Virus record (IMG/VR): IMGVR_UViG_3300025154_000318
Coordinates: 1 to 29,728 of that record
Direction: 5' to 3' (one strand)
Length of the DNA stretch: 29,728 bases
Origin: a virus
Shown here one piece after another: positions 3,834-29,592 of this stretch (positions are counted from its first letter, which is position 1; each line of letters begins with the position of its first letter). The position numbers and the translations under genes were made by a program. A model generated the notes under the pieces. That model ran no database searches. It was not told the DNA's origin and saw nothing but the letters and a program-made list of their open reading frames with translations.

Positions 3834-4600
3834 CGGTCATCACGCTGACGGGCGACCGCCCGCTGGCGTTTGCTCTTTGTAAATTGTGGATGTCCGGACA
3901 GACGCTCAAGCCGGATCAATGGATCGTCGTGGACGACGGCAAGACGCCCCTCGTCCCCACGCCGGAGATGACTTACATCCGGCGAGAACCGCGCAGGGAT
4001 GACCCGTCGCACACGATGATCCTGAACATGCGGGCGGCCCTTCCGGCGATCGCGGGTGAGAAGATCCTGTTTTTGGAGGACGACGAGTATTACGCCCCCC
4101 GCTATGTCGAGGAGATGGCCCGCCGCCTCGAGGAGTACGAAGTCGTCGGAATCGCCAGGAGCAAATACTACCATCTGCCGACGGGGGGATTTCTCAGGCA
4201 CAGCAACATGGATCACGCCTCCCTCGCCCAGACCGGCTTTCGGGGATCGTTCCTCCCCGAGTTTGCGATGCTCCTTAAAGGAGACATGTTCCTCGACATC
4301 CGGATCTGGAAAAAGGTCGGGAACACCCAGAAACTGAAGTGGGGAGAAGAGACCTGTGTTGTGGGCGAAAGGATCGTCGGAAACGGGCGGGGGCTGCTGT
4401 TCGACGACGGGATCGAATCGAATCTCTACGTCGGCATGAAGGGCCTTCCCGGGCGCATGGGCATCGGCTGCGGACACCGCGAATATAAAGAGTATCTCAA
4501 AGATACGCCGGACCGCGAGGTCCTTAGACGATGGATCCCGGGGAATTATCAACATTATCTGGATATCCTGGCCGGGAAGGAGCCGAATGTAAGCGGATGA
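3830..4600 (+). CDS. Glycosyltransferase-like protein (GT-A fold)
   Basis: The frame is open further upstream, but GTG at 3830 overlaps the previous stop (GTGA) and begins right at the first strand VTVITLTGDRP, so I choose it (256 residues). Family-2-like features: TGDRPLAFALCKLWMSGQ, then QWIVVDDGKTPL (first acidic motif), and ILFLEDDEYYAP (a DxD-like metal/nucleotide-sugar motif, EDDEYY). Later EETCVVGERIVGNG and a C-terminal HREYKEYL helix follow. Known members transfer a sugar from a nucleotide-sugar to an acceptor. With the two preceding genes it forms a modification cassette between the tail-terminator and lysis genes. Acceptor unknown. Confidence 0.7.
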   Translation: MTVITLTGDRPLAFALCKLWMSGQTLKPDQWIVVDDGKTPLVPTPEMTYIRREPRRDDPSHTMILNMRAALPAIAGEKILFLEDDEYYAPRYVEEMARRLEEYEVVGIARSKYYHLPTGGFLRHSNMDHASLAQTGFRGSFLPEFAMLLKGDMFLDIRIWKKVGNTQKLKWGEETCVVGERIVGNGRGLLFDDGIESNLYVGMKGLPGRMGIGCGHREYKEYLKDTPDREVLRRWIPGNYQHYLDILAGKEPNVSG

Positions 4601-8567: not shown

Positions 8568-8641
8568 TACGCGGGAGTAGCTCAGGCGCGAGAGCCCGCC
8601 GATAATACGGCGGCGACGGCGGTTGAAATCCGCCCCCCGTA
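8568..8641 (+). ncRNA. tRNA-like fold (degenerate tRNA) in the tail gene gap
   Basis: The 97-base gap between tube and chaperone genes folds as a cloverleaf. D-arm: GCTC 8580-8583 with GAGC 8592-8595. Anticodon-like arm: CCGCC 8596-8600 with GGCGG 8609-8613. T-arm: GGCGG 8618-8622, loop TTGAAAT, CCGCC 8630-8634. Acceptor: TACGCGG 8568-8574 with CCCCGTA 8635-8641, one C/C mismatch. The 5' part GCGGGAGTAGCTCAG (8571-8585) equals the start of common bacterial tRNA-Gly genes. Against a working tRNA: an anticodon loop of 6 or 8 bases, a 5-base gap before the D-arm, G instead of C in the T-loop, and no CCA. It may be a decayed tRNA or an mRNA structure. Confidence 0.45.
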
Positions 8642-8660
8642 AATCACAGTCGGAGGCCGT

Positions 8661-15771: not shown

Positions 15772-17295
15772 AGGGTGGTGGTGAAGTTCATAAGTTTGGG
15801 AACACAGACGGCGGCAAATTGGAGTACAGGCAAAGTGATAGGATTCGAGACAAACCCGAAGGCATGCGTGTCCTATGTCGTTGAAATCCGAAACCTCGAT
15901 GGATCATTGAAAAAATATTGGAGTATGGGAAAAGATGGAGTCAACACCGAGGTCCCCAATAATTCCTCATGGAAGTATCGGCTTTTCTCCGGTCAGGACT
16001 ACCCTGTAACATTCTTGCCTACAGTAGTCACGGCAGACAGAATCCCCAGCAAGGCGATGGAGTGGATCGCAGGGGAAAGCGCAATACTGGGGCTCCCTGT
16101 AACGCCGAAATTCCAGTCAAGTAAGGTTTCATCGATTGATGAAGAAGTAGACCGTGAAAGCGTTGATACCTCTTCTGGTGTTTCTCACGATAATGCCGTT
16201 CTAGCGGCTAAGATGGGTGATAATCCCATCACATCTTCCGGCGCTACTGCATGGGCCAATACTGAGACATTAAAACAATTTCTGGTGCATAAAGTTAATG
16301 GGATAGAAATAATCGATCCGCCATTCCTGACTTTAGTCGGTAACGTAATCGGCAATAGCACGTGGGGCATGACGCACACTCTTGGAACTGGCTATTCAAA
16401 TTATGTCGGGACTGAAGAAATTCTATATGATGGCTCAACCGCTGTCGAACACACCTACATGGCCATTGGGGACGGAAAATTTGCTGGGTATAGTTATTTT
16501 GTAACAACGTCACGAGATCAACAGATTTCTACTGTATCTTTCCATCATCTATCCCCAACTTCATATAGCAAGATAGCTGCAAGCGAATCTTCAAAAACAT
16601 TTGCTTACGGACCATTAATGTACGGGAGTCATGAAATACACCCTGCATGTTCGGTCATAGAAACAGCGGTCTTTAGTGGGTCAATGAGTATTGCGCCTGT
16701 ATCAAACAGCCCCTTAAGCTATGGTCCTGCGAGTGGATCATATATTTATGGGTATAACGGGAAGGCTCACGATTTCTTGTGGCAACTGGGCAATGGGGAC
16801 GAAGAATTTTGCTGCGAGTACTGGGTTATCGATTGGGTAAGAAATAATAATCGAACTGTTTCGCAGGCTGAGTATGGTCTTAATGCGTGGAATGCCTGGC
16901 CTGGGTTTGAGAATCATGGGGATTATGGATCATTTGAACTCACAGGAGATGATTCATTTACAAAAACGGTGACATATAAATTAGCATTTAGGACAAAGGG
17001 CGCAATAACCCAAATCACTCTCGGTACGTCAAACGAGATAGGGGATGGTACATGGAAATATGCGAGCCTTGTGGGAAGAGAATGTGATACCCACTTTTTA
17101 ATTTTACATACATTTTTATCAATAATATTATGGGGGCCGGCATTCTACACCTACGAACTCATCGTCATTAATAAGATAACGGGCGGATACGAACGAATCC
17201 CCCTCGGAGATGAAACCACGTGGGGGCAGAATATTCGTATAGCGTTAAAGGGGATAGGTCCCGATGCGTACACGCCGCCACCCCCATCACCATAA
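15763..17295 (+). CDS. Tail tip/baseplate protein, part 2 (same frame as part 1)
   Basis: The frame is open from 15745 to 17295. The first possible start is GTG 15763, which has no ribosome site and falls inside the beta-domain sequence AVGDRVVVKFISLG, so independent translation is doubtful. Residues that follow (TGKVIGFETNPKACVSYVVEI) complete the domain begun by part 1. The rest is a long beta-rich region rich in Ser, Thr, Tyr and Gly (GMTHTLGTGYSNYVGTEEI, YIYGYNGKAHDFLWQLGNGD), like a host-contact domain. Base composition falls clearly after about 15,800, suggesting that the C-terminal domain was acquired separately. The end is PPPPSP. Confidence 0.65.
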   Translation: MGDRVVVKFISLGTQTAANWSTGKVIGFETNPKACVSYVVEIRNLDGSLKKYWSMGKDGVNTEVPNNSSWKYRLFSGQDYPVTFLPTVVTADRIPSKAMEWIAGESAILGLPVTPKFQSSKVSSIDEEVDRESVDTSSGVSHDNAVLAAKMGDNPITSSGATAWANTETLKQFLVHKVNGIEIIDPPFLTLVGNVIGNSTWGMTHTLGTGYSNYVGTEEILYDGSTAVEHTYMAIGDGKFAGYSYFVTTSRDQQISTVSFHHLSPTSYSKIAASESSKTFAYGPLMYGSHEIHPACSVIETAVFSGSMSIAPVSNSPLSYGPASGSYIYGYNGKAHDFLWQLGNGDEEFCCEYWVIDWVRNNNRTVSQAEYGLNAWNAWPGFENHGDYGSFELTGDDSFTKTVTYKLAFRTKGAITQITLGTSNEIGDGTWKYASLVGRECDTHFLILHTFLSIILWGPAFYTYELIVINKITGGYERIPLGDETTWGQNIRIALKGIGPDAYTPPPPSP

Positions 17296-19087: not shown

Positions 19088-20218
19088 ATGGGGAACTTCA
19101 TTTCGCAACACGTTTTGATCCCGAAATTCACGATCTCGGATGTCGCGGGCGTCACGTTTGGCGGATTTCTGGCGGACAAATATGTCTGTTCGCAGCCGAA
19201 CGCCACCCCTTCCGAAGGCAGTCCCGATGTCGCCCCCGCCGGCGCGGCTGCGGCGGTCCCGGCCATTTCGAAGGCCGGCGTTCCGGTGTGGGACTATATC
19301 ACATTCCCTCAGGCGATGATCGCCTGCTGCAACCGGGGAAAAGGCTGGCATCTGCTTTCGGCTTTCGAGTATGCCGCCCTGGCGTTCCTGGCCAAGAAGT
19401 ATGGCACGCAGCCCCACGGCGGAAACGCAAACGTGGATCCGCCCTCGGATATCACCTTCACGACCGAGATCGCTTCCCTCGACAAGCATCTGCACGGCGA
19501 AAACGGCGGATATCACCGCGCCCTTCCCGGTACGGGTCCGAACACCTGGGCGCATAACCACCTGGCGTCGGGCGTCTTCGACCTGCAGGGCCTGGTTTGG
19601 CAATGGATCCTCCTGATGATGGCCACGAGCGGATATCCCTACGTTCCGGCGAATCTGGATGTCAGTTATACCGGCTCTCCCTATGGTCGGGGGACCATCT
19701 CTGGATCCGGAGGCGCGACCCCCACCCTGTCGCTCGACGGCGCCGGCATCAACTGGCTGAAAGCATGGACGGTGGATGAATTCAACACCGATTGCTGGTG
19801 CTACATTGCCGAAGCGGGCGGCGGTGCGGGCGCACTCTATCAGGTCGTAGACACGACTCCCACGACGTTGATCCTGGCCAATGGCGCCGCCCCCGGCGAT
19901 GGCGCGGCGACGTTCTGCATTTTCAAACTGATCGCGACGGATGTCTCCGGCGGGTGCTCCTCCGGACAAAAGATCCTGACGCTCCGAGATGCAGACGCCA
20001 ACCTGAAACCGTTCGCGATCCCCGCGACGACGGACGGGACTGGCGCGGCGGCCTATGGCAACGACATTTATTACTTTGACAAGAGCTCATTGCGCGCGGC
20101 GTTGCGTGGCGGCAGCTTCCTTGACGTGGCGTCCGCGGGTGTGTTCGCGCTCCACTTGAGCAACGCTGCGTCGGGCTCGTACTCCTCCTTCGGCTTCCGC
20201 GCCGGCAAGGCACTCTGA
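19088..20218 (+). CDS. DGR target 1: variable tail-tip protein, C-type-lectin/FGE-like fold
   Basis: A 376-residue protein whose last 40 residues are encoded by a DGR variable repeat. GGAGGGGG precedes ATG 19088. The domain shows marks of formylglycine-generating-enzyme-like C-type lectin folds used by DGR targets: FPQAMIACCNRGKGWHLLSAFEYAA, LQGLVWQWI, LDVSYTGSPYGRGT, and the C-terminal RAALRGGSF...AGVFAL...GFRAGK. Variable residues sit in a ligand-binding surface, so the protein is probably the receptor-binding tip joined to the fibre upstream. Residues about 110-165 (DPPSDITFTTEIASLDKHL...) are absent from target 2. It ends TGA 20216-20218, inside the VR1 hairpin. Confidence 0.85.
   Translation: MGNFISQHVLIPKFTISDVAGVTFGGFLADKYVCSQPNATPSEGSPDVAPAGAAAAVPAISKAGVPVWDYITFPQAMIACCNRGKGWHLLSAFEYAALAFLAKKYGTQPHGGNANVDPPSDITFTTEIASLDKHLHGENGGYHRALPGTGPNTWAHNHLASGVFDLQGLVWQWILLMMATSGYPYVPANLDVSYTGSPYGRGTISGSGGATPTLSLDGAGINWLKAWTVDEFNTDCWCYIAEAGGGAGALYQVVDTTPTTLILANGAAPGDGAATFCIFKLIATDVSGGCSSGQKILTLRDADANLKPFAIPATTDGTGAAAYGNDIYYFDKSSLRAALRGGSFLDVASAGVFALHLSNAASGSYSSFGFRAGKAL
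20091..20208 (+). repeat. DGR variable repeat VR1
   Basis: This 118-base stretch aligns without gaps to template positions 20653-20770. I count 18 differences. Seventeen are at template A positions (20666, 20677, 20682, 20683, 20685, 20689, 20694, 20695, 20715, 20722, 20736, 20737, 20742, 20746, 20748, 20749, 20751), and one is C to G (template 20730, VR 20168). The 3' end CGGCTTCCGCGCCGGCAA is unchanged and is the likely IMH-like boundary. Adenine-specific change is the signature of DGR mutagenic retrohoming. Confidence 0.92.
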
Positions 20219-20234
20219 AATCTGCTTTTTCAGA
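20214..20234 (+). other. DGR target hairpin after VR1
   Basis: TCTGAAA (20214-20220) pairs perfectly with TTTCAGA (20228-20234) around loop TCTGCTT. It starts six bases after the unchanged 3' end of VR1. In the Bordetella phage DGR a hairpin or cruciform at this place is required for efficient retrohoming. VR2 has an equivalent one and the template does not. Confidence 0.7.
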
Positions 20235-20271
20235 CTATCTGTCTTTCCGAGGAAAAGGGAGGAGTTAAAAA

Positions 20272-20649
20272 ATGTCGAGAACGAACGAATTGATCATCTA
20301 CCAGAAGCATTATGATTTAATGCTCTATTCGTTTCCGATCATCGGCAGATTTCCGAAGGAGCAGCGGTTCGTCCTCGGTCAACAGATCGAAAATGCCATG
20401 CTGGATATCGGCATGATGATCGTTCATGCCAATAAATTGCGCCAGAAAAAGGAGATGCTCTATGAACTCGACATCGCTCTGGAGAAACTACGTTTTCTGA
20501 TCCGCTTGTCGAAAGATTTGAAGATGATGTCGGTGTCAAAATATGGCCACCACTGCGAGCGAATCGACGAGATCGGTAAATTGCTCGGCGGGTGGATTAA
20601 AAGCTCCGTCCCGGATCATTCCGGGACGGCCAAACAGGGGCATGGTTGA
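20272..20649 (+). CDS. avd: DGR accessory variability determinant (Avd), four-helix bundle
   Basis: A 125-residue protein with GGGAGGAG before ATG 20272. It is nearly all helical, with the Avd pattern: ELIIYQKHYDLMLYSFPIIG, RFPKEQRFVLGQQIENAML, a third helix ANKLRQKKEMLYELDIALEKL with RFLIRLSKDLKMM, and a last helix with HHCERIDEIGKLLGGWI. Known Avd proteins form a pentameric barrel that binds the reverse transcriptase and template RNA and is needed for mutagenesis. It ends exactly where the template repeat begins and is in the usual order target-avd-TR-RT. Confidence 0.88.
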   Translation: MSRTNELIIYQKHYDLMLYSFPIIGRFPKEQRFVLGQQIENAMLDIGMMIVHANKLRQKKEMLYELDIALEKLRFLIRLSKDLKMMSVSKYGHHCERIDEIGKLLGGWIKSSVPDHSGTAKQGHG

Positions 20650-20771
20650 TTATGCGCGCGGCGTTACGTGGCGGCAACTTCAATAACGAGGCGAACGCGG
20701 GTGTGTTCGCGCTCAACTTGAACAACGCTCCGTCGAACTCGAACTACAACATCGGCTTCCGCGCCGGCAAA
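20649..20771 (+). ncRNA. DGR template repeat (TR) and template RNA region
   Basis: This non-coding stretch matches VR1 (from 20653) and VR2 (from 20649). If translated it would be rich in Asn from AAC/AAT codons (GGNFNNEANAG, LNLNNAPSNSNYN), the codon type that gives most amino-acid choice on A mutation. It has no ribosome site. The template RNA probably continues into the spacer before the reverse transcriptase gene, which holds hairpins CCGGGA 20796-20801 / TCCCGG 20809-20814 and TCACC/GGTGA around 20845-20860. Such spacer structure is needed by the reverse transcriptase in studied DGRs. Confidence 0.9.
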
Positions 20772-20923
20772 ACGAAAGATTCTTCAGCGAGACGGCCGGG
20801 ATAACATTTCCCGGGCGCAGTGCAGAGTGCTTTGGAATCATGACCCTCACCGTAAGGTGAAAAATAAAAAAGGGGATGTACCCTCAGTAGACAACGAACA
20901 GGACGCATTCTTCCGGGAGCGGC

Positions 20924-21955
20924 ATGAAAACATATAGCGGTTTGTATCCTCAAATCTGCGAATTCGACAACATTCACGCGGCCTATCTCAAGGCACGCCG
21001 ATTGAAGCGCTATAAGCAAGAGGTCCTGCGTTTTTCCTCCAAGCTGGAGGAAAACCTGATCAACATCCAGAACGATTTGATTTGGAAGACTTACCATCCC
21101 AGCCGCTACAAATATTTTACAATCTACGAGCCGAAACAGCGCCTCATCGCGGCCCTGCCGTTTCGGGACCGCGTCGTCCACCACGCGCTATGCACCGTCA
21201 TCGAGCCGATCTGCGAGCTATCCATGATTCACGATTCTTTCGCCTGTCGCCGCGGCCAGGGTGTTCTTTCCGGCGTTCTCAGGACAACCCGCTTCCTCCG
21301 GGACGCCGGTCGTCGCTGGGGCCGCGTCTATTGCCTGAAGGCGGATGTCACGAAGTTTTTTCCGTCGATCAATCACGAGATCCTCAAGCGGATACTTCGC
21401 CGCCGGATCGCCTGTCCGGATACCCTTTCCCTGATCGACACCATCATCGACAGCACCGAAACCGATCGGGGGCTCCCGATCGGCAGCCTGACTTCGCAGC
21501 TATGGGCGAACGTCTATCTCAACGAGCTGGATCATTTTGTCAAAGAGACGCTCCGGATCCGATACTACATCCGCTATATGGATGACTTCGTGCTCCTCGA
21601 TGCAGACAAGGTCCGCCTGCACAATGTGTTGGAGGAGATCACCGCGTTTCTCGACGATCGGCTCCATCTCTCCCTGAATGGCAAAACACAGATTTTCCAG
21701 ATATATCCGCGCTGCGTGGATTTCCTGGGATACCGGATCTGGCCGAATTATCGTCTACTCAGAAAAGCGAATGTCAAGAGGGCGAGGCGACGATTAAAGA
21801 AACTGGTGCGCCAGATTCGCGCGGGAGAGATCACCTGGGAGAGCTTCCGCCCTCACTTAACGTCCTGGCTCGGCCATTGCCGATATGCGGACAGCTTCCG
21901 GATCCGGAATAGCGTGATGAGATCCGCCGGGATCCTGGCGGAGGATATTCATTGA
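20924..21955 (+). CDS. DGR reverse transcriptase
   Basis: A 343-residue RT. Blocks in order: IYEPKQRLIAALPFRDRVVHHAL (RT motifs 1-2), VYCLKADVTKFFPSINHEIL (motif 3, first catalytic Asp), GLPIGSLTSQLWAN (residues 183-196, with the SQ that marks DGR RTs in place of QG), YIRYMDDFVLL (YMDD at 218-221, catalytic Asp pair), and FLDDRLHLSLNGKTQIF plus VDFLGYRIWP (motifs 6-7). No maturase or other domain is fused. It copies the template RNA into cDNA with errors opposite adenine. The stop overlaps the next ATG (TGATG), so the following lipoprotein is probably co-translated. Confidence 0.93.
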   Translation: MKTYSGLYPQICEFDNIHAAYLKARRLKRYKQEVLRFSSKLEENLINIQNDLIWKTYHPSRYKYFTIYEPKQRLIAALPFRDRVVHHALCTVIEPICELSMIHDSFACRRGQGVLSGVLRTTRFLRDAGRRWGRVYCLKADVTKFFPSINHEILKRILRRRIACPDTLSLIDTIIDSTETDRGLPIGSLTSQLWANVYLNELDHFVKETLRIRYYIRYMDDFVLLDADKVRLHNVLEEITAFLDDRLHLSLNGKTQIFQIYPRCVDFLGYRIWPNYRLLRKANVKRARRRLKKLVRQIRAGEITWESFRPHLTSWLGHCRYADSFRIRNSVMRSAGILAEDIH

Positions 21956-22374
21956 TGAGAAGGCTTGTTTTAATCATATTCTTTTTTGCGGTTCTCGCCG
22001 GTTGCAATAACGGGACAGACAAACTCGGAACCGGGGGAAGGCTGTTCAACGACTATCAAGGCTGGTTCACCAGCATCAGCCAGCCGACCAAGTCCACGCT
22101 GGATACTACTTTAACAATTCGTTTCAGGGGTTTTGGAAGTGAAGCCGAGAAGCAAACCGCTTGGGATAAGCAATGGAGGAGCAAGCATCCGGAATGGGGG
22201 CCGGTTCAACAGGCGACTGTATCAGGGTTTCCCATCGAGATATGGTTCGATATTCGGGAGATTCCCAAGGAGGGCTTGCTGCTCCCGCCCCATATTATTG
22301 GCCATGAGGTGATCCATGCAATCAAGATCGCGCGACCCGAAGCAATCGATTCGGATAGTTTTGCGATGAGGTAG
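21955..22374 (+). CDS. Lipoprotein with HEXXH motif, coupled to DGR RT
   Basis: A 139-residue protein starting at ATG 21955, overlapping the RT stop. It has a lipoprotein signal (hydrophobic stretch, lipobox LAGC with Cys 17). The mature part ends in PPHIIGHEVIHAIKIARPEAI, where HEVIH (117-121) fits the zinc-metallopeptidase HEXXH signature. A third zinc ligand could be an acidic residue in the downstream Glu/Asp stretch. The short mature domain (about 120 residues) is smaller than most proteases, so it may be inactive or need a partner. Its place in the DGR operon is unusual; it might act at the cell surface in lysis or exclusion. Confidence 0.65.
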   Translation: MRRLVLIIFFFAVLAGCNNGTDKLGTGGRLFNDYQGWFTSISQPTKSTLDTTLTIRFRGFGSEAEKQTAWDKQWRSKHPEWGPVQQATVSGFPIEIWFDIREIPKEGLLLPPHIIGHEVIHAIKIARPEAIDSDSFAMR

Positions 22375-22411
22375 AACTCGGTAAAAGCGTAGAGACTTGT
22401 AGAGACCAAGA

Positions 22412-22438
22412 AAAAGGCCTCCTTCGGGAAGCCCTTGT
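22412..22438. terminator. Hairpin with TTCG loop between DGR and integrase operons
   Basis: Sequence from AAAGGCCTCC through TTCG to GGAAGCCCTT forms a stem with two mismatches around a stable TTCG tetraloop, followed by TTGTTATT on the plus strand and preceded by a purine-A run that becomes T-rich on the minus strand. It lies between the two converging transcription units and may stop both. Confidence 0.45.
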
Positions 22439-22441
22439 TAT

Positions 22442-22488
22442 TGGTGGGTCGTGCGGGAATCGGACCCGCGACCAACGGATTAAAAGTC
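22442..22488 (-). other. Attachment core: 3' end of tRNA-Lys (UUU)
   Basis: Read on the minus strand this 47-base stretch is the 3' part of a tRNA-Lys: GACTTTTAATC (anticodon stem-loop with TTT), a variable loop, T-arm GCGGG/TCCGATT/CCCGC, acceptor strand and CCA. The 5' half is missing, so it is not a working tRNA. Phages that integrate into tRNA genes carry exactly such 3' fragments to restore the gene after integration. It lies 66 bases from the integrase gene. Confidence 0.85.
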
Positions 22489-22553
22489 TTGTAAAAAAAC
22501 AATCATATCGAATATTTGAAATAAATTTACTGCCCTCGTGTAGAGACTGGCCT

Positions 22554-23669
22554 TTATTTCTGCGGATTTCCCGTAGAGACCTCTCCGGAAAACAAGCCCT
22601 GCGCCCGCCTGAGATCAGCCATTGAAACATGAGAATACCATTGTGTCGTAAGAATATTTTTATGCCCGAGGAATCTCTGAATGATTGAAGCGTTGACATC
22701 AGAGGCCATAAGGTGACTGGCTATTGAATGCCTCATCAGGTGTGGCGTCACCCTTTTTGTCACCCCCGCCGCCTTGCAGATCCGTTTGATTGCTGCACGG
22801 ACATCCCCGATCGGCTCCCCTTCCATTTTTTTTAACCCGAACAGATATTCCCTGGGCTTCATCGGCCATAGATCCACCAGATCTTTTACCGCATCGATGA
22901 CCTGATCGCTCAGGGGCAAGACTTTTTCCGTCCCGCCCTTCTGTCGGACCTTCACAGCTCGATTCTCAAAGTCAAAATCTTCCAGTCTCAAAAAGCGAAC
23001 CTCTGAAAACCGAAACCCGAGCGCGTACAGGCAGAGGAAAAACGTCCTGTAAAACGGCTCCCGTTCCGCCGCCTGCATGATTCGACTGACCTCCTCCGGA
23101 CTCAGGACGACGGGAAGGGGCCTCGAGCATGGCAGCTTTTCATAGTGGATCGCCGGGATATCGATCTTCTTTTCCCGCCGGCACCACTTCAGGAATCCGG
23201 CGAAGTAGTCCAGCTCCTTATTCACCGTCCTGTTTTTCACCTTCCCGGCCCGGTTCTGCTGGTAAAGGCTGAAATACTCCGGCGCAATGTCCCGAACCTG
23301 ATACTGTCCTAGAATGGGGCTGATCGACTTCTCCCATGTCAGATTGATGTCCCGGCAAGTCCCTGGCCGTCGCCGATCCCCCACCCGACACCATTTGAGA
23401 TAACCCGGAAACAGATCCGCCACGGTGGATAACGAGGAGGATGCGACGACAACGGGCCGACGCTTCACGCCCATGAGGACCCGTTCGTGTCTTTTGGCCT
23501 CTCCGAGATCCGTCTCCGCCGGGAGCGTGATCTTCTTCCGCCCTCCACGCCGCCCGTTCGGCCAGTAATCGATCGCGAACCGAAAGGCGATGGATCCACA
23601 GTCCGGACAGTCGATCGTCCCCTGGGGCACCCTGCGGCGACAAGAACGGCATTTGATGATCAGGGCCAT
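22554..23669 (-). CDS. int: Phage integrase (tyrosine recombinase) with N-terminal zinc ribbon
   Basis: A 371-residue minus-strand protein. Residues 8-25 form a Cys4 zinc ribbon (CRSCRRR...CPDCGS). A core-binding domain follows (ADLFPGYLKWCRV...NRTVNKELDYFAGFLKWC). The catalytic domain has the Arg in YALGFRFSEVRFL, the box PHLMRHSIASHLMA (H-x-x-R), GHKNILTT, and QWYSHV with the nucleophilic Tyr. It should join attP to the 3' end of a host tRNA-Lys. It is last in the lysogeny operon, with its ATG one base after the upstream stop, and its own end overlaps an arm-like repeat. A zinc ribbon on the N-terminus is less common and may aid arm-site binding. Confidence 0.93.
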   Translation of the reverse strand: MALIIKCRSCRRRVPQGTIDCPDCGSIAFRFAIDYWPNGRRGGRKKITLPAETDLGEAKRHERVLMGVKRRPVVVASSSLSTVADLFPGYLKWCRVGDRRRPGTCRDINLTWEKSISPILGQYQVRDIAPEYFSLYQQNRAGKVKNRTVNKELDYFAGFLKWCRREKKIDIPAIHYEKLPCSRPLPVVLSPEEVSRIMQAAEREPFYRTFFLCLYALGFRFSEVRFLRLEDFDFENRAVKVRQKGGTEKVLPLSDQVIDAVKDLVDLWPMKPREYLFGLKKMEGEPIGDVRAAIKRICKAAGVTKRVTPHLMRHSIASHLMASDVNASIIQRFLGHKNILTTQWYSHVSMADLRRAQGLFSGEVSTGNPQK

Positions 23670-23670
23670 A

Positions 23671-23835
23671 TCAGTTTCCGCATTTGAAGATCATGGTCAG
23701 CAGTCCGGCCAAGACAATGGTGATGATCAGCGCCCAGGCATAGCTCCCATAATCATGCCGGGCTCCACAATGGGGGCATCGTCCGGACGAGTCGCTCTTC
23801 ATCTTGCCGCATTCATGGCAGGGGATCATGGACAT
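23671..23835 (-). CDS. Small zinc-ribbon membrane protein
   Basis: A 54-residue minus-strand protein. It has a Cys4 ribbon (CHECGKMK...CPHCGA, residues 6-24) followed by one membrane segment (WALIITIVLAGLLTMIF) and a Cys near the end. GGGAG lies nine bases before its ATG at 23835. It overlaps the upstream gene's stop by ten bases, and its own stop is one base from the integrase start, so it belongs to the same operon. Zinc ribbon plus single membrane helix is a common small accessory layout; function unknown. Confidence 0.7.
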   Translation of the reverse strand: MSMIPCHECGKMKSDSSGRCPHCGARHDYGSYAWALIITIVLAGLLTMIFKCGN

Positions 23836-24380
23836 GGCAACCCGCTCCCCGTTTTAAGAAAATTGACAAAATCATGTTGGGATAAGTGATATTGTCCATC
23901 CGTAATAAGTGTTTTCTTGTGTTCATCGGGCCTCAATAGATCAAAATGCACAGAACCGTGGATGAAATAACCTTTCTCATCGGTCAAATCAGACGTGGCG
24001 CTGGTCACTTGGCATACAAGACTAATGTGCTTCATTGCTTCTTTCCATATCAGCCTTTTTGCCAGTTTTGAGTCATAGAGTACATGGCCCTGAGCAAAGG
24101 AATAGGCATTCCCCTGCGTCCATTTAAATACCTTTTTGGTCAGTTTTCTTTTTCTGGTCTTTTCGTTTTTTTTGACCCATCCATATTGTATTTGCCCATC
24201 AATGAGCTCCGGCTCAATTCGCTCGGTAAACCGAATGTCCAACTGGTCTTTGAAATATTCGCCAACGGCGAAAAACCATCCATCAGCATAGCCATCGACA
24301 AACTTAACAATTAGTGAGAGAGATCTTTTTGTTCGTGGCATCGGTAACCTTATAGATATATCACGTTCCTGTATTTCCAA
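23826..24380 (-). CDS. Hypothetical protein in the lysogeny operon
   Basis: A 184-residue minus-strand protein if it begins at ATG 24380. ATG 24342 (MPRTKRSLSL), with AAGG just ahead, is a good alternative and would avoid the overlap with the upstream gene. Features: SLSLIVKFVDGYADGWFFAVG, a basic stretch (KNEKTRKRKLTKKVFKW), a central QGNAYSFAQGHVLYDSKLAK, and an acidic/His-rich end. No family recognised. Low GC compared with the structural genes. Its stop overlaps the small zinc-ribbon gene. Confidence 0.6.
   Translation of the reverse strand: MEIQERDISIRLPMPRTKRSLSLIVKFVDGYADGWFFAVGEYFKDQLDIRFTERIEPELIDGQIQYGWVKKNEKTRKRKLTKKVFKWTQGNAYSFAQGHVLYDSKLAKRLIWKEAMKHISLVCQVTSATSDLTDEKGYFIHGSVHFDLLRPDEHKKTLITDGQYHLSQHDFVNFLKTGSGLPCP
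24352..24369. repeat. 18-base direct repeat, copy 1
   Basis: ATAGATATATCACGTTCC is found here and again, without mismatch, at 24920-24937. Here it covers the 5' end of the 184-residue gene. It contains the palindrome GATATATC. On the minus strand it reads GGAACGTGATATATCTAT upstream of the likely start. Confidence 0.75.
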
Positions 24381-24966
24381 AATTCATAAGTTTCCTATAT
24401 TCACGTGAGATCCATTCAAGCAGAGCATTTTCCATATATTTGTATTTTTTTGGCAAAACACATTGCATCAATCTGAGCGAGCCAGAAGCCATGTCATTAT
24501 AAATTTCAAGGTTGAACTCTTCGGTTTCTAAATCAACGGAAGCTCGGATGGAATTCCCGTCACCTAAGCCCGTCAGGTGAACATATTTTCTCTTTTTAGC
24601 TGCGGTTATGGTTTTTATACTTCCCTCGGGTATGGGGGGGCTCATTGATTGCATACTAGACATAGACGGCAAAAAACTTTGTCCTCGAATCGCTCGTTGT
24701 TTTATTTCATCTTTGAACGGTTGTAACGATTCAGGAATTCCCTTTTCCATGAAAGCCTGAATTAAATGTTTACAGAGACGGCGGGGATCATCTATGGAAT
24801 ATTTTTTCAGCGTGATTTGAAAATATTTGCAGGAACAGCTCGTCTCATCGAAATCGACCTTATAATAAGCCCCGCGATTTGATAGACTCTCAAAATACAT
24901 TTCCTTGCCAGTTTCTGTCATAGATATATCACGTTCCCCCTTTTCCTGATGAAGCCACCGGCGCAT
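24361..24966 (-). CDS. SWIM zinc-finger protein
   Basis: The frame is open from ATG 24966 (201 residues), but that start overlaps the repressor gene by 38 bases. ATG 24921 (MTETGKEMYFESLSNRG, 186 residues) directly follows the 18-base repeat and may be the true start. A SWIM finger is visible: SCSCKYFQ (C-x-C) then RRLCKHLIQAF (C-x-H). SWIM fingers bind DNA or proteins and occur in recombination- and transposase-related proteins. The C-terminal half has two beta-rich stretches (YVHLTGLGDGNSIRASVDL...FNLEIYNDM). It is second in the lysogeny operon. Function unknown. Confidence 0.65.
   Translation of the reverse strand: MRRWLHQEKGERDISMTETGKEMYFESLSNRGAYYKVDFDETSCSCKYFQITLKKYSIDDPRRLCKHLIQAFMEKGIPESLQPFKDEIKQRAIRGQSFLPSMSSMQSMSPPIPEGSIKTITAAKKRKYVHLTGLGDGNSIRASVDLETEEFNLEIYNDMASGSLRLMQCVLPKKYKYMENALLEWISREYRKLMNFGNTGT
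24920..24937. repeat. 18-base direct repeat, copy 2
   Basis: Identical to 24352-24369. On the minus strand it ends with the TATG that contains the probable ATG 24921 of the SWIM gene. It also overlaps the end of the repressor gene. Confidence 0.75.
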
Positions 24967-25303
24967 TTGCTCCAGGAGTAGGGGAGGTCAGTTTGTCATA
25001 ATTCTTCCGAAATTTGGCTATTACGCTTTGAGCTTCGGCCAGCTCTTCCGTGCGGGCAAAATATTTACCTTTCCATTTCTCGATCTCGCTGGATAAAAGC
25101 TTTTCCCCCTGGCCGGTACGCAGCCATTCAAGACGCAAACCTCTTTCTACGCCAAGCAAGAGTAGCTTATTTTTTATCGTCCCCGTTTTTTTCTTGTTCG
25201 AAAAATTGGAGATCGTTTCCCCAACGGCTTTTGCAACCGCCCCTTCCGTCTTGTAGCCGCAAGAATCCATCAATCTTTTAAGTATTTGTGTAATTTCATC
25301 CAT
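24929..25303 (-). CDS. Phage CI-type repressor (HTH only, no peptidase domain)
   Basis: A 124-residue minus-strand protein. Residues about 1-65 form a CI-like helix-turn-helix domain (QILKRLMDSCGYKTEGAVAKAVG...ETISNFSNKKKTGTI...LLLGVERGLRLEWLRTGQG), ending in the 'LEWL.TG.G' typical of that family. A coiled coil follows (SSEIEKWKGKYFARTEELAEAQSV), probably for dimer or tetramer formation. There is no LexA-like peptidase domain, so RecA-triggered self-cleavage is unlikely; another induction route would be needed. No Shine-Dalgarno precedes the ATG, so a leaderless message, as for lambda cI, is possible. It is divergent from a promoter with a palindromic operator. Confidence 0.8.
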   Translation of the reverse strand: MDEITQILKRLMDSCGYKTEGAVAKAVGETISNFSNKKKTGTIKNKLLLLGVERGLRLEWLRTGQGEKLLSSEIEKWKGKYFARTEELAEAQSVIAKFRKNYDKLTSPTPGANAPVASSGKGGT

Positions 25304-25330
25304 GATTCAAAAAATAAATTAAAAAAATGC

Positions 25331-25361
25331 TTGACATGTTTTGATGAATCGTGTATTCATC
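25331..25361 (+). promoter_or_regulatory. Rightward early promoter with overlapping operator
   Basis: TTGACA (25331-25336), 17 bases, then TATTCA (25354-25359): a near-consensus sigma70 promoter pointing to the early genes. The palindrome GATGAAT-CGTGT-ATTCATC (25343-25361) covers the spacer and -10 box, so a bound dimer would block RNA polymerase. It is the best candidate operator of the divergent CI-type repressor. A second smaller palindrome GATTAAGAATC lies at 25371-25381. Confidence 0.75.
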
Positions 25362-25411
25362 CACCCCAGAGATTAAGAATCAACCCCTAAACCTTAACGA
25401 GGAGGCAAGTC

Positions 25412-25834
25412 ATGATAAAAATACCAGCAATCTACCTCCCCGCATTTTGGCGCAACACAACGGCCTATGAGCGAGAGCGCGGCTGCATCGGAATAGGGTT
25501 AACTCTTGAATCCGGTGAGACCGTGCGATTTCGCCTGGATGCGATTAACGCGCGCCATCTGTCCGAGACCATCACGGAATACCTCCCTACGAACCCTTCC
25601 TCCACTCGCTCAAATCTTCCGGATGATCAACCGTTTGTTGCTCATCCCATGGCGTCCAACCCGTTGCACACATATAAACATCATCTGCCGCAAGCTGGGG
25701 CGAATCATATGACCCCAAATTCTCATCGTCAATCCAAAGGCAATAACGGCCTCGCACGTTTTCATCAGGCCTTATCGCAAAAGTTCCAATGTTTGTTCGA
25801 TATTGGTAAATTTCTATGTCCCCTCAAGAAATAG
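25412..25834 (+). CDS. First early protein, unknown function
   Basis: A 140-residue protein with a strong AGGAGG before ATG 25412, the first gene after the early promoter. The first 60 residues look like a small folded domain (IPAIYLPAFWRNTTAYERE, IGIGLTLESGETVRFRLDAI). The rest (HTYKHHLPQAGANHMTPNS...) is less regular and may be disordered or out of true frame. No helix-turn-helix, so it is not an obvious Cro. Its end overlaps the next ATG by 19 bases. Confidence 0.55.
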   Translation: MIKIPAIYLPAFWRNTTAYERERGCIGIGLTLESGETVRFRLDAINARHLSETITEYLPTNPSSTRSNLPDDQPFVAHPMASNPLHTYKHHLPQAGANHMTPNSHRQSKGNNGLARFHQALSQKFQCLFDIGKFLCPLKK

Positions 25835-26097
25835 ATGCCCTCCGCAAGGAGGTCAAACACAAACTGGTCGATCTCGGGCTCGATCGGCCGGGTTCATACG
25901 AGATCATTGCTCCGCATCTGCGCCTGCCCGTCAGCAAGAAGATCCTCAGCATGGCGTTGACGGGTTATCGCCATGGGAAGGCAGCCCAGGCCCTCCTGGA
26001 GGAGCTTTTAACGGTATTGTCGGCCTGGCCTCCGGAGGCTGATAGAAATACTCCCCATTGTGGACATATACACAATGGGGAAAAGAAAAACAATTAA
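25816..26097 (+). CDS. Putative HTH DNA-binding early regulator
   Basis: A 93-residue protein from ATG 25816. The middle reads IIAPHLRLPVSKKILSMALTGYRHGKAAQALLEELLTVL; the 'S.xxLSxAL.GYR.G..a..lL.eL' pattern recalls phage regulator helix-turn-helix domains of Cro/Cox type. No other domain. It may be the functional opponent of the CI-type repressor. An 11-bp inverted repeat covers its last codons, which could allow control of its own message or of the next gene. Call from pattern only. Confidence 0.5.
   Translation: MSPQEIDALRKEVKHKLVDLGLDRPGSYEIIAPHLRLPVSKKILSMALTGYRHGKAAQALLEELLTVLSAWPPEADRNTPHCGHIHNGEKKNN
26052..26081. repeat. Perfect 11-bp inverted repeat (8-base loop)
   Basis: TCCCCATTGTG (26052-26062) and CACAATGGGGA (26071-26081) are exact complements around GACATATA. 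It lies in the last codons of the preceding gene and 38 bases before the next ATG. The following bases are A-rich rather than T-rich, so it is not a plain terminator on this strand. Confidence 0.75.
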
Positions 26098-26119
26098 ATT
26101 TTTAAGGGGAGGGTGAACG

Positions 26120-26380
26120 ATGAAATCAGGACAAATATCCCTCGATCTTTCATACAAACCCCACAATGTCCTTTTAGATCTGGGCAAGAAAACCGAACGA
26201 ATTACTTTTACAGCCACTGATGACCTTACTTCAATGCTCCGCTTGCTTACAAATAGGCTGGGCGTTTCCATTTCTGAGTATTGCCATGACCGCGTGATCG
26301 AATGCGCCTCTCGTGACATTGGTGAAATCCTCCTTCTTCAAGCAAAAGCGAACAAACCGCTGAAAGATTTGTTGCGATGA
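26120..26380 (+). CDS. Small early protein, unknown function
   Basis: An 86-residue protein with GGGGAGGG before ATG 26120. A beta-rich start (ISLDLSYKPHNVLLDLGKKTERITFTATDD) is followed by a helical part (LTSMLRLLTNRLGVSISEYCHDRVIECASRDIGEILLLQ). The helical part with SISEYCHDRVIE recalls ribbon-helix-helix-type or antirepressor small proteins, but the match is weak. The 80 bases after its stop hold a T-rich promoter-like sequence and a hairpin, so the next gene may be controlled separately. Confidence 0.55.
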   Translation: MKSGQISLDLSYKPHNVLLDLGKKTERITFTATDDLTSMLRLLTNRLGVSISEYCHDRVIECASRDIGEILLLQAKANKPLKDLLR

Positions 26381-26393
26381 TGGACTCTTTTTT

Positions 26394-26442
26394 TTGACAT
26401 GCAAGTATACCTCGGTGTGATCATGATGCACAGCGGGTATAC
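26394..26442 (+). promoter_or_regulatory. Possible promoter and hairpin leader
   Basis: TTGACA at 26394-26399 is a perfect -35 box; a -10 box is poor (TGTGAT/TGATCA about 16-18 bases later). GTATACC (26405-26411) pairs with GGTATAC (26436-26442), and inside them TGTG pairs with CACA around ATCATGATG. The nested hairpin ends 18 bases before ATG 26461 and could control its translation or be a protein site. Confidence 0.35.
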
Positions 26443-26460
26443 CACAAAGGAATCAAGCAC

Positions 26461-26814
26461 ATGCCCCGTACCATTGAACAGCAGATCAAAGACCTTCTGG
26501 ACAGAGTGAATCTCCTGGAGGGGATCGTAATCGAGGGGAAGCAACCACCCACGCCCGGATCGGAGGAATATTTCAACGTCGTTATCCCGGCGCTGGCGAA
26601 AGGGGATGTCAAGCCACTGATCGCATTCAAGAAGCGCGGCGGGGTAGTCCCGGACTATGAGCCCCTGCCGAATGAAGCCCGCAGAACCTGTATTTATAAG
26701 CCCCGCAAACGAGTAGAGAGGCCCCGGGCAGAACCTACAAACGGTTGCGGAACCCCGGTCATGCTTCTTCCGGGCCGCGATAAGGCGGCAAAAGAGCAGC
26801 GGCGCGTGGTGTAG
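26461..26814 (+). CDS. Hypothetical early protein
   Basis: A 117-residue protein from ATG 26461 with AAAGGAA 9 bases ahead. An N-terminal helix (IEQQIKDLLDRVNLLEGIVIEG) looks able to form a coiled coil. A middle FNVVIPALAKGDVKPLIAFKKRG is followed by a basic, proline-containing end (KPRKRVERPRAEPTN). No family recognised. Confidence 0.55.
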   Translation: MPRTIEQQIKDLLDRVNLLEGIVIEGKQPPTPGSEEYFNVVIPALAKGDVKPLIAFKKRGGVVPDYEPLPNEARRTCIYKPRKRVERPRAEPTNGCGTPVMLLPGRDKAAKEQRRVV

Positions 26815-26819
26815 TGGTA

Positions 26820-26849
26820 GTTGGGTCCGTCGTGGGGAACGGACCCAAC
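26820..26849. repeat. Perfect 11-bp inverted repeat before a membrane protein gene
   Basis: GTTGGGTCCGT (26820-26830) and ACGGACCCAAC (26839-26849) pair exactly around CGTGGGGA. It lies between the 26461 gene and the ribosome site of the next one, with no T-run after it. Stem and loop lengths equal those of the repeat at 26052-26081, though the sequence differs. Confidence 0.75.
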
Positions 26850-26868
26850 CTCGAAACGGAGGCAAGCC

Positions 26869-27054
26869 ATGAAGAGCCATGAGACACAATCATATGTGAA
26901 TGTCGGGGGATGGCAAATTCTCCTTTGGGGTTTCAAGGAAAGTCCCCCGAAGGCCCTGCAGGAGATCGGCGCCTGCCTGCTTATGTTCGCCGTGATGTTT
27001 GGAGCGTTGTTTTTGAAGGATATCCTGATTTGGATTGGGGAGGTGCTTGGATGA
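26869..27054 (+). CDS. Small membrane protein
   Basis: A 61-residue protein. I start at ATG 26869 because ACGGAGG lies seven bases before it; a TTG at 26821 would run through the hairpin. It has one or two membrane segments near the C-terminus (IGACLLMFAVMFGALFL, ILIWIGEVLG). Its stop overlaps the next ATG at 27051. Function unknown; likely inner membrane. Confidence 0.6.
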   Translation: MKSHETQSYVNVGGWQILLWGFKESPPKALQEIGACLLMFAVMFGALFLKDILIWIGEVLG

Positions 27055-27272
27055 GTACATCGTCTGCTGTTTTTGAAGCCAATAGGACTCTTTCTTGGAC
27101 GTTCGCGGGATGCTTGAACTCAGGTGAATCGGTGTTCTTTACGCCGGCGGGAGATTTGGCCATCGAAAAAGATCATGCCTACTTGATGGAAGTGACCCCG
27201 GAGGAACGAGCCGAAATCTATCAAAAATGGCCACACCTGAATCCCATATCAAAGATGAGCCTTTCAGGTTGA
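27051..27272 (+). CDS. Small hypothetical protein
   Basis: A 73-residue protein starting at ATG 27051, overlapping the upstream stop, with GGGGAGG ahead. Sequence is mixed (FEANRTLSWTFAGCLNSGE, DLAIEKDHAYLMEVTPEER). No family recognised. Confidence 0.55.
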   Translation: MSTSSAVFEANRTLSWTFAGCLNSGESVFFTPAGDLAIEKDHAYLMEVTPEERAEIYQKWPHLNPISKMSLSG

Positions 27273-27296
27273 ATGACCACAATAGAGAGCTAGTAT

Positions 27297-27389
27297 ATGC
27301 AAAAGTGGCTTATTAAAAACGCGATCGCATTCACGGCCCTGGGGCTGGCAGCCCTGGGGTATATGATCATCGGCTTTTTTAAGATGTGA
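27297..27389 (+). CDS. 30-residue single-span membrane peptide
   Basis: ATG 27297 has GAGAG eight bases before it and gives MQKWLIKNAIAFTALG continuing LAALGYMIIGFFKM: a basic start, one membrane helix and a short end. Fills the 126-base gap between two genes. Short phage membrane peptides are common but seldom characterised. Confidence 0.5.
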   Translation: MQKWLIKNAIAFTALGLAALGYMIIGFFKM

Positions 27390-27398
27390 GATGATTTC

Positions 27399-27689
27399 AT
27401 GAGCGGGACACCTGTCGCAAGCGAATATTTCCGCTGGGGGACGCAGTCGCGCAAGCTATACGATCGCCTGACGTGCGGTCCGGTCACCGCATCCGAAATT
27501 GTCAGGCAGCTCAAGATCCATCAATACCACAAAAAGATTTCCGAGATCCGGAACCGGATCGCCGGGACGGGCGTCACCGTCAAAGCCAGGCCGATCGACG
27601 GACGCCGCCGCGGACGCCTTGTCTTGGAATTCCGCCTGGCCCTCGAGAATGTTGAGAGCATCGAGGCCGCGAAGGAGGCTTTGAATTGA
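27399..27689 (+). CDS. Small winged-helix-like protein
   Basis: A 96-residue protein from ATG 27399. Its order of helices and basic wing (TQSRKLYDRLTCGPVTASEIVRQLKI, KKISEIRNRIAG, then VKARPIDGRRRGRLVLEFRLAL) is that of a small winged-helix DNA-binding domain as found in phage replication or regulator proteins. Its stop overlaps the TTG start of the next gene. Confidence 0.55.
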   Translation: MSGTPVASEYFRWGTQSRKLYDRLTCGPVTASEIVRQLKIHQYHKKISEIRNRIAGTGVTVKARPIDGRRRGRLVLEFRLALENVESIEAAKEALN

Positions 27690-28636
27690 CCGAATCCCGT
27701 CGATGCTTTCCTCATTGCGGAAAATGCCAATCGACGGCGGTGTACCTGGATGACGAGCCCTGGACCGGCAGCAAGTACATCGCCTGTCTGAAGTGTGGGA
27801 ACCGTTGGCCGGGCGGGGTTGAACCATATATGGCCGAAAAAGGGGAGGGAAATATGAGCAAAAGGGCTACGTGTAAGAACTGCAAGCGGGAAGAAATGAG
27901 CATCATCCGCGAAGGACTCTGCGGAATCTGCGCGGAGATGGCGAAAAAGAATCCGGATCCGGAGCTTCGGGCGTCCGCCTTGGCCGAGGTCCGGGCAAAA
28001 GTCGAACGGAGCGATCTCAAGGGTCCGCGGTATGATGGTCCCCGGAAGAAGAAGGCCGCAAAAGCCCCAGGAGATCGTGTGCGCGATATCGCACACCCAA
28101 AGAAAACGTCCGGCGGGGATCCGCCCCCGTTGCCGGCTGGCGGATATCCGCCTCCCCTGAGTAAAACGCGTTCAGAAGAGTTTCATGAATCCCTGAAACG
28201 TACGCGGCAACGTGCAGAAAATATCCTGGGAAAGAAATCCCCTGGCTCGGTTCATCCGATGGCGACGCCCGAAAAGGAACTCGGTCCGTCCGGCGTCAGG
28301 GCTTGCCGGATTTGCGGTTGCACGGATGATCATGCCTGTGAAGGTGGGTGTTCCTGGGTAGTGGATCCGGATTTCGGAGATCTATGCAGCCGGTGTGCTT
28401 CCGATCTTATTCGGGTGGCAGATAATACCCCCACGAGGGTCGTTCCTTCCCAAGCCAAATCCATGAAGTCGATTGTCATTCAACTCAGCTTCTCCGGAGC
28501 AGACATTCTGATGTATCGCTTGTTCGAGATTTATTGTCACCACCATCAGAGACGGAACCCGGAAGGACAAATCCTTTTCATGATCAAAGAGGCCGTCAGA
28601 GCGGCAACACGTCATCAAACACAGGAGGGTATATGA
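27686..28636 (+). CDS. Multi-zinc-ribbon protein with unusual TTG start
   Basis: A 316-residue protein. TTG 27686 is supported by AAGGAGG eight bases before it; ATG 27854, with GGGGAGGG, is a fair internal start. Three Cys clusters are visible: CGKC...CLKCG (about residues 11-38), CKNCKRE...CGIC (63-82), and CRICGCTDDHACEGGCSW...LCSRC (about 208-238), each able to bind zinc. Between them is a disordered basic and proline-rich linker (KKKAAKAPGD, PPPLPAGGYPPPL). The C-terminal 65 residues are helical (SGADILMYRLFEIYCHHHQ). It overlaps the second DGR target (ATGA at 28633-28636). It may be a regulator or two fused small genes. Confidence 0.6.
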   Translation: MTESRRCFPHCGKCQSTAVYLDDEPWTGSKYIACLKCGNRWPGGVEPYMAEKGEGNMSKRATCKNCKREEMSIIREGLCGICAEMAKKNPDPELRASALAEVRAKVERSDLKGPRYDGPRKKKAAKAPGDRVRDIAHPKKTSGGDPPPLPAGGYPPPLSKTRSEEFHESLKRTRQRAENILGKKSPGSVHPMATPEKELGPSGVRACRICGCTDDHACEGGCSWVVDPDFGDLCSRCASDLIRVADNTPTRVVPSQAKSMKSIVIQLSFSGADILMYRLFEIYCHHHQRRNPEGQILFMIKEAVRAATRHQTQEGI

Positions 28637-29592
28637 AAAAGAAGGAAGTCGAAAATTTGGTGTATGTCCCGGCGTTCAAGACCAAAGAAGTCCCAGGAGT
28701 CACGTTCGGCGGATTCTCCCTGGACCGGCACATGGCATCCGAAAACAAAATGCCGTTGCGAAGAAAGACATTGCCCGAAGCTATGATCTCTTGCGCCGAT
28801 AAGGGGAAGGGTTGGCATTTGATCACGGCGTACCAGTGGGCGTCCATGGCCCATTTCTGGAAAAAGGCGAAGAGCCTCGATGAACTCGATTTTGATCCCC
28901 ATGCAGAGACCTGGCAATGGGTTATGGGCCTCTTTATGGAGGACGACGGCCATGTTGATGTTCTCGGATCGTTGGACGTCTCTTACACAGGCAGTCCATA
29001 CGGCCGTGGAACGATCAGTGGTTCGGGCAATTCTCCGATCCTGGCCGTAGATGGCGCAGGAATTAACTGGCTCAAGAAGTGGGAGACCGGAGCATTCAGG
29101 GGCATGATGGCTTATATTGCAGAGGCGAATAGTGCCCGGGGTGGGCTTTACCATATCGTGGACAGCAAGAAAGACTCTCTCCAGCTCCAAATCGCATCCA
29201 GCCCCGGAAATGGTCCTGCAACATTCTGCATCGTCAATCATGTTCCCATCGATATGACCAAGGGCATGAATACAGGGGATCACATTACGGCCCTGAGCAA
29301 TGATAACGATTTGAAGCCTTTTGCCATCCCCGGAAAAACAAGACGAGACGAAGATCCATTATTCGGGAATGACCATTACTGGTTCTATAAAAGCAGAATT
29401 ATGCGCGCGGCGTTCCGTGGCGGCGCCTTCGATGACGAGGCGGACGCGGGTGTGTTCGCGCTCTACTTGAACACCGCTCCGTCGAACTCGGTCTGCGGCG
29501 TCGGCTTCCGCGCCGGCAAAGCAATCAGAAATCTGGTTTTTCTGAAAATCTGCTTCGATATAATGGCACTGGGTCGTAGGTCAATGGCTTGA
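28633..29592 (+). CDS. DGR target 2: remote variable protein, C-type-lectin/FGE-like fold
   Basis: A 319-residue protein with CAGGAGGG before ATG 28633. It is clearly related to target 1: VPGVTFGGFSLDR, LPEAMISCADKGKGWHLITA, LDVSYTGSPYGRGTISGSG, DGAGINWLKKW, DLKPFAIPGKT and RAAFRGGAFDDEADAGVFAL...GFRAGK. It lacks a ~55-residue insertion present in target 1 and has a C-terminal extension (AIRNLVFLKICFDIMALG) after the variable repeat. No signal peptide. It is the last gene of the early/accessory cluster, 8.6 kb from the DGR, rather than near tail genes. It could be a second receptor protein or one made in lysogens. Diversified in trans by the DGR, as VR2 shows. Confidence 0.85.
   Translation: MKKKEVENLVYVPAFKTKEVPGVTFGGFSLDRHMASENKMPLRRKTLPEAMISCADKGKGWHLITAYQWASMAHFWKKAKSLDELDFDPHAETWQWVMGLFMEDDGHVDVLGSLDVSYTGSPYGRGTISGSGNSPILAVDGAGINWLKKWETGAFRGMMAYIAEANSARGGLYHIVDSKKDSLQLQIASSPGNGPATFCIVNHVPIDMTKGMNTGDHITALSNDNDLKPFAIPGKTRRDEDPLFGNDHYWFYKSRIMRAAFRGGAFDDEADAGVFALYLNTAPSNSVCGVGFRAGKAIRNLVFLKICFDIMALGRRSMA
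29398..29520 (+). repeat. DGR variable repeat VR2
   Basis: Aligned without gaps to template 20649-20771 it shows 14 differences, all at template adenines (20666, 20676, 20677, 20682, 20685, 20694, 20715, 20725, 20742, 20743, 20746, 20748, 20749, 20751). Ten of them do not give the same base as VR1. All non-adenine positions are identical. This shows recent diversification from the same template. Confidence 0.93.
29525..29545 (+). other. DGR target hairpin after VR2
   Basis: TCAGAAA (29525-29531) pairs exactly with TTTCTGA (29539-29545) around loop TCTGGTT. It starts five bases after the end of VR2, has the same stem length and nearly the same loop as the VR1 hairpin, and differs in stem sequence. 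It lies inside the coding sequence of target 2. Confidence 0.7.

Follow-up and report, generated by a model that had tools for sequence, protein, structure and literature searches.

The window, that is the whole of a linear IMG/VR record of 29,728 bp from a temperate phage, very probably carries a single phage DGR that diversifies two paralogous C-type-lectin proteins, one encoded beside the template and the other in a distant early region. In the explanation we favour, the RNA of the template repeat (TR) would be copied by the reverse transcriptase (RT) together with Avd, with errors at A, as is established for BPP-1, and the cDNA would replace VR1 in the adjacent tail-side gene and also, in trans, VR2 at a distance of about 8.7 kb. 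VR2 would be reachable because its gene retains the 3' end of the VR together with a phased CTG array, to which we ascribe this role. The VR2 gene would have originated as a duplicate of a VR1-type gene before the window and a related phage, G002, parted, would subsequently have lost two segments, and would now be part of an early operon beside lysogeny genes. Its product would most likely be a soluble accessory binding protein expressed with the early genes, which would give the phage a second recognition surface to vary. The features concerned are the following.

19088-20218, plus strand: target 1, tail-side variable protein of 376 aa, carrying VR1
20091-20208, plus strand: VR1, 17 of 18 differences from TR at A
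20209-20243, plus strand: CTG array behind VR1, GGCACTCTGAAATCTGCTTTTTCAGACTATCTGTC
20272-20649, plus strand: avd (Pfam bAvd PF22296, 4e-29; PHROG 3206 'Avd protein of DGR', 2e-36)
20649-20771, plus strand: template repeat TR
20924-21955, plus strand: DGR reverse transcriptase, 343 aa (RVT_1, PF00078, 2e-20; 38% identity to BPP-1 Brt)
22442-22489, minus strand: tRNA-Lys-like 3' end, candidate attachment site, found by eye
22554-23669, minus strand: tyrosine integrase (PF00589, 8e-34)
24929-25303, minus strand: CI-type repressor (PF07022, 1e-4)
25412-28636, plus strand: rightward early genes without known families, from ORFs
28633-29592, plus strand: target 2, remote variable protein of 319 aa, ATGA-coupled to the preceding gene (TaqVP, Z 19.0)
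29398-29520, plus strand: VR2, 14 of 14 differences from TR at A over 118 bases
29523-29555, plus strand: CTG array behind VR2, within the coding region, AATCAGAAATCTGGTTTTTCTGAAAATCTGCTT

According to Pfam and PHROG the cassette is complete, with avd, TR and RT all present, and target 1 matches PHROG 2889 as well as the tail PHROG 5302 and, by phmmer, 5vf4 (TaqVP, E 2e-9). The integrase and the CI-type repressor, both on the minus strand, separate the RT from the early genes, and the early genes adjoining VR2 have no PHROG match and belong to no known family. An attP between the cassette and VR2, as proposed in the first-pass annotation, is plausible in view of the tRNA-Lys-like 3' end next to the integrase, although no tRNA was called by ARAGORN at 22442-22489. 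Elsewhere in the window (2097-4600), two ORFs between the head-completion and tail genes look, from the sequence alone, like a methyltransferase (578 aa) and a glycosyltransferase (270 aa), and an undefined tRNA-??? call by ARAGORN at 8570-8642 overlaps the end of a late gene, probably by chance.

Aligned by program and without gaps over the same 118 bases, as the first-pass annotation had suggested, TR (20653-20770) differs from VR1 (20091-20208) at 18 positions, 17 of them at a TR A and the remaining one being C20730->G. All 14 differences between TR and VR2 fall on A (15 of 15 over 29398-29522). As there are 26 A per 118 bases, the hypergeometric p is 3.7e-13 for VR1 and 1.9e-11 for VR2. 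Both VRs thus show A-specific differences, the earlier counts were reproduced, and the repeat coordinates and the assignment of one template to two targets stand. The window therefore has the defining feature of a DGR, an RT plus TR/VR pairs that differ almost only at TR A, with VR2 about 8.7 kb away and in another gene. In both target genes the template A are nearly always found at codon positions 1 and 2, which is the usual DGR design. A total of 11 A sites are altered in both VRs and carry the same base in only one case and different bases in ten, from which it follows that VR1 and VR2 were rewritten separately. This argues against the view that VR2 is a silent archive or relic, either a former target or a copy fed from VR1 by recombination and itself unused, which we consider improbable; non-A changes have not accumulated in VR2 either, and its reading frame is open.

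We examined 80 RT relatives from IMG/VR for a second VR. A single-sequence IMG/VR scan with VR2 yielded nothing; an alignment-based scan yielded G002 (locus L003) and VR1-type relatives. G002 is a record of 37,952 bp from another metagenome whose RT is 71% identical to that of the window. Here VR1 differs from TR at A in 10 of 10 cases, and a remote VR2, 6.5 kb from TR, in 18 of 18 cases, so that the confinement of TR/VR2 differences to A holds in a related phage as well. The gene order in G002 is primase, terminase, portal, head, tail, VR1, avd, TR, RT, integrase, CI, early genes and VR2, where portal and head are named from our own inspection of the ORFs. Between the two phages the VR2 genes are 58% identical and the VR1 genes 69%, compared with about 36% between VR1 and VR2 genes. 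As each type is closest to its counterpart in the other phage, the duplication must be older than the split between the window and G002. The N-terminal part of the G002 VR1 protein, about 140 residues long, is fibre-like; such a part is found neither in the G002 VR2 protein nor in the window VR1 protein.

The two genes also bear the mark of concerted evolution with their template. Nine non-A sites distinguish the TRs of the two phages, and at all nine VR1 and VR2 match the TR of their own phage. Outside the VR, third codon positions of the VR1 and VR2 genes differ at 68% in the window and 60% in G002, inside the VR at only 5% and 0%, respectively. Both the low third-position divergence inside the VR and the agreement at the nine sites are explained by repeated copying of TR into both genes, and as a matter of history the rewriting of VR2 from TR is, from these comparisons, nearly certain. 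Outside the VR, the VR2 genes of the window and G002 differ at 35% of first, 28% of second and 61% of third codon positions; this excess of third-position differences indicates that the protein is kept by selection, and purifying selection between phages is again at odds with an unused VR2. A point in favour of a recombination-fed archive comes from G002, where more than 30 identical bases follow VR1 and VR2 (L003:9340-9371 and 16374-16405) beyond the part that matches TR; they reflect either strong constraint or recombination between the targets.

Misplacement of a VR1 copy near a contig end by the assembler might be suspected, as the window contig stops 136 bp past the VR2 gene and the G002 contig 247 bp past its own. 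We regard such an artefact as hardly credible: over half of the residues differ between the VR1 and VR2 genes outside the VR, the flanks are different, and the layout recurs in the separate assembly of G002 and inside the complete genome of phage FP_Lagaffe. The first-pass reading of one DGR with two true targets is thus borne out by the same layout in G002, by the concerted evolution of TR and VRs and by named relatives, and the findings show that a phage can retain a DGR for two paralogous targets through long periods.

Regarding the VR2 gene itself, we place the start at ATG 28633, which overlaps the upstream stop as ATGA (the mechanical ORF start was 28534). Neither target of the window is recognised by Pfam at E values up to 1, and no signal sequence was seen in the VR2 protein. 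AlphaFold2 with only 12 sequences gave a poor model (pLDDT 48), while 47 sequences gave a mean pLDDT of 88.2. The solved structure nearest to this model is TaqVP, the Thermus aquaticus DGR variable protein (Z 19.0, 218 residues), followed by formylglycine-generating enzymes (FGE, Z 10.2), PvdO and Mtd (Z 10.4), and TaqVP is also matched at the sequence level by a profile built from the targets (E 7e-17). The VR2 protein is, by its predicted structure, of the C-type-lectin/FGE-like fold with the VR in its C-terminal part. Residues 112-203 of the model are a beta-rich domain inserted into the lectin fold and shared by VR1, whose similarity to V-ATPase N-terminal barrels and to a phage tail-tip domain is weak (Z 6-7).

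Two segments of the VR1 proteins, of about 27 and 51 residues, are missing from the VR2 protein. Outgroups identify these gaps as losses in VR2 and not as insertions in VR1, the second segment being kept in the targets of FP_Lagaffe. The size difference between the targets described previously is therefore present but corresponds to two losses in VR2 instead of an insertion of about 55 residues. The C-terminal extension of VR2 is real: VR1 and both G002 targets stop at ...KAL*, VR2 reads past that point, and its final 21 residues, modelled with low confidence, come from read-through into the element behind the VR.

As had been stated before, VR2 lies among early, non-structural genes, after CI, on the rightward strand and with ATGA coupling; its position past CI, its direction and the coupling are the basis for assigning it to an early operon. 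We lean slightly towards a non-virion role of the VR2 protein, judged from its sequence and surroundings. The related idea of the first-pass annotation, two binding proteins for different phases, is plausible given the early region, the coupling and the stand-alone protein, and we infer with similar, modest preference that it applies. The main rival is that VR2 is a second virion protein, an alternative receptor binder or a decoration, whose gene merely happens to be in the early region, so that both targets act at adsorption. This is possible, at roughly one chance in three in our judgement: VR2 descends from a tail-side, VR1-type protein, its two nearest relatives of known function in sequence are tail proteins (PHROG 5302), and the resemblance of residues 112-203 to a phage tail-tip domain (8vjh, Z 6.6, below 8 and thus weak) points the same way. 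What weighs against a virion protein is, besides the early position and the coupling to an early gene, that VR2 is devoid of a fibre-like N-terminus, and that an independent lineage has its VR2 in the same early position, with methyltransferase, deoxyribosyltransferase and replication genes as neighbours.

To gain an overview of how frequent such targets are, 35 other viral records with related RTs or targets were scanned over all or most of their length. A distal second VR was found in four of them (G002, G037, G045 and G048) and, in addition, in FP_Lagaffe. In G037 VR2 lies at 15.3 kb with 15 of 15 differences at A, and its gene overlaps the preceding one with ATGA coupling as in the window; in G045 and G048, 13 of 13 and 15 of 16 differences are at A, and the distance would be about 9-11 kb if these genomes are circular. 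In the other phages VR2 is surrounded by early or accessory genes, among them a replication initiator, deoxyribosyltransferase, HD phosphohydrolase, DNA methyltransferases or PAPS reductase. In a tree of 36 targets the VR2s of the window and G002 group together (100/100) inside the window-type targets, and those of FP_Lagaffe, G037, G045 and G048 group together (100/99) in the other half. A single clade of all six VR2s is rejected (p-AU 2.3e-9), also after removal of the VR (4.7e-7), which excludes a pull by the shared template. Remote early-region targets therefore arose at least twice, which speaks for selection rather than accident. The G037 contig begins (L216:1-91) and ends (L218, record 46001-46113) inside VR1, and the two end alleles differ, with 10 of 10 and 14 of 14 differences at A. 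This indicates that the assembly broke at the hypervariable VR of a probably circular genome, the contig ends in effect recording VR1 diversity within the sample.

Several VRs per DGR have been known since 2012, in about a seventh of DGRs (PMC3521204), and second VRs were noted in Lagaffe, Lelie and CP11 (PMC11792537). In four gut prophage species a second VR is distal from the RT and near counter-defence genes (PMC12629997, Nature 2025); these are gut isolates, likened to the window by description and not by sequence. The assessment of the arrangement as unusual in a phage therefore holds only in part, since it has been published for FP_Lagaffe and these four species and also occurs in 4 of the 35 records scanned. 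Large surveys limited to the surroundings of the RT miss such targets, as Roux et al. stated of their own (PMC8144416).

The closest known system is FP_Lagaffe (MG711461), which likewise has one TR, a VR1 in an adjacent Mtd-like gene (13 of 13 at A), a VR2 (11 of 11 at A) about 9.5 kb downstream, in an FGE-domain gene of the early region that is located by annotation between integrase/HTH and exonuclease/ERF genes, and a CTG array after both VRs. However, its VR2 gene falls in a separate tree clade and is not an orthologue of that of the window, and it has an IS30-type integrase and a Gram-positive gut host, whereas the window has a tyrosine integrase. The window thus fits the layout, a distal second VR with A-only differences in an early or accessory region, without common descent of the second target. 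The window works like FP_Lagaffe but arose separately, the kind being a matter of layout and not of descent; this kind of system is already known, and the window comes from a lineage that acquired it independently. The phage DGRs nd4 and nd12 (tentaclins, PMC10743442) also combine one TR with two C-type-lectin targets, but these have no mutual sequence similarity, one VR is near the 5' end, and both targets are in the cassette, with the nd12 VR about 2 kb from TR. BPP-1 (Mtd), the system in which the rules for targets were established (PMC3240598), shares the order target-avd-TR-RT, A-specific differences, a C-type-lectin target and an RT of 38% identity, but differs in having one target, in lacking a regular CTG array and in carrying a canonical hairpin 4 bp behind the VR (PMC3240598). 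Cyanobacterial remote variable proteins (PMC7517822) are paralogous targets away from the RT and diversified in trans as well, but they are chromosomal, with TR after the RT, and do not lie in phage early regions.

In the DGR group of the window, VRs but not TRs are followed by 3-5 CTG triplets with a spacing of mostly 7-8 bp. At least three CTG within 60 nt were found after 50 of 58 VRs, which include close relatives and so are not all independent; the same holds for 2 of 58 TRs and for 7% of random windows. When four units are strictly required, 29 of 43 VR zones contain an array, against about 0.15% of windows of equal size elsewhere. The array stands behind both VRs in the window (three exact CTG units each) and in G002 (four each), and in the VR2 of both the window and FP_Lagaffe it is inside the coding region. 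Units of the CTTT type with the same phasing of 7-8, 15 and 23 bp occur in many cyanobacterial and other chromosomal DGRs (L123-L183). No description of a VR-side array was found in the literature searched, which left out a major 2018 DGR survey. We tentatively suggest, at somewhat less than even chances, that in many DGRs the phased CTG/CTTT-type array serves as a hitherto unrecognised address element for the target, a role that its position and conservation may indicate. If so, any C-type-lectin gene ending with the VR 3' part plus the array would become a target in trans, which would explain how phages enlisted a remote early-region protein at least twice and also why an array that has to be translated is nonetheless retained. 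The shared array offers a testable idea of target marking, of use in finding remote targets and in directed-evolution tools.

A canonical hairpin (GC-rich stem, 4-nt GRNA loop) was not found within 150 nt of the window or G002 VRs, and Rfam gave no match; a hairpin after the VR is typical but not required, as homing without it is reduced and not lost (PMC12875486). An AT-rich stem of 7 bp that can be drawn behind both VR1 and VR2, apparently with a compensatory change, was rejected in favour of the array, as G002 and L002 form it incompletely and its z-scores are weak. CAG-rich sequence after TRs was likewise discarded as a pairing partner of the array on account of a spacing mismatch. The CAG triplets as such are enriched after TRs (at least three within 60 nt in 27 of 58) and rare after VRs (L002-L081), and may be part of the DGR RNA.
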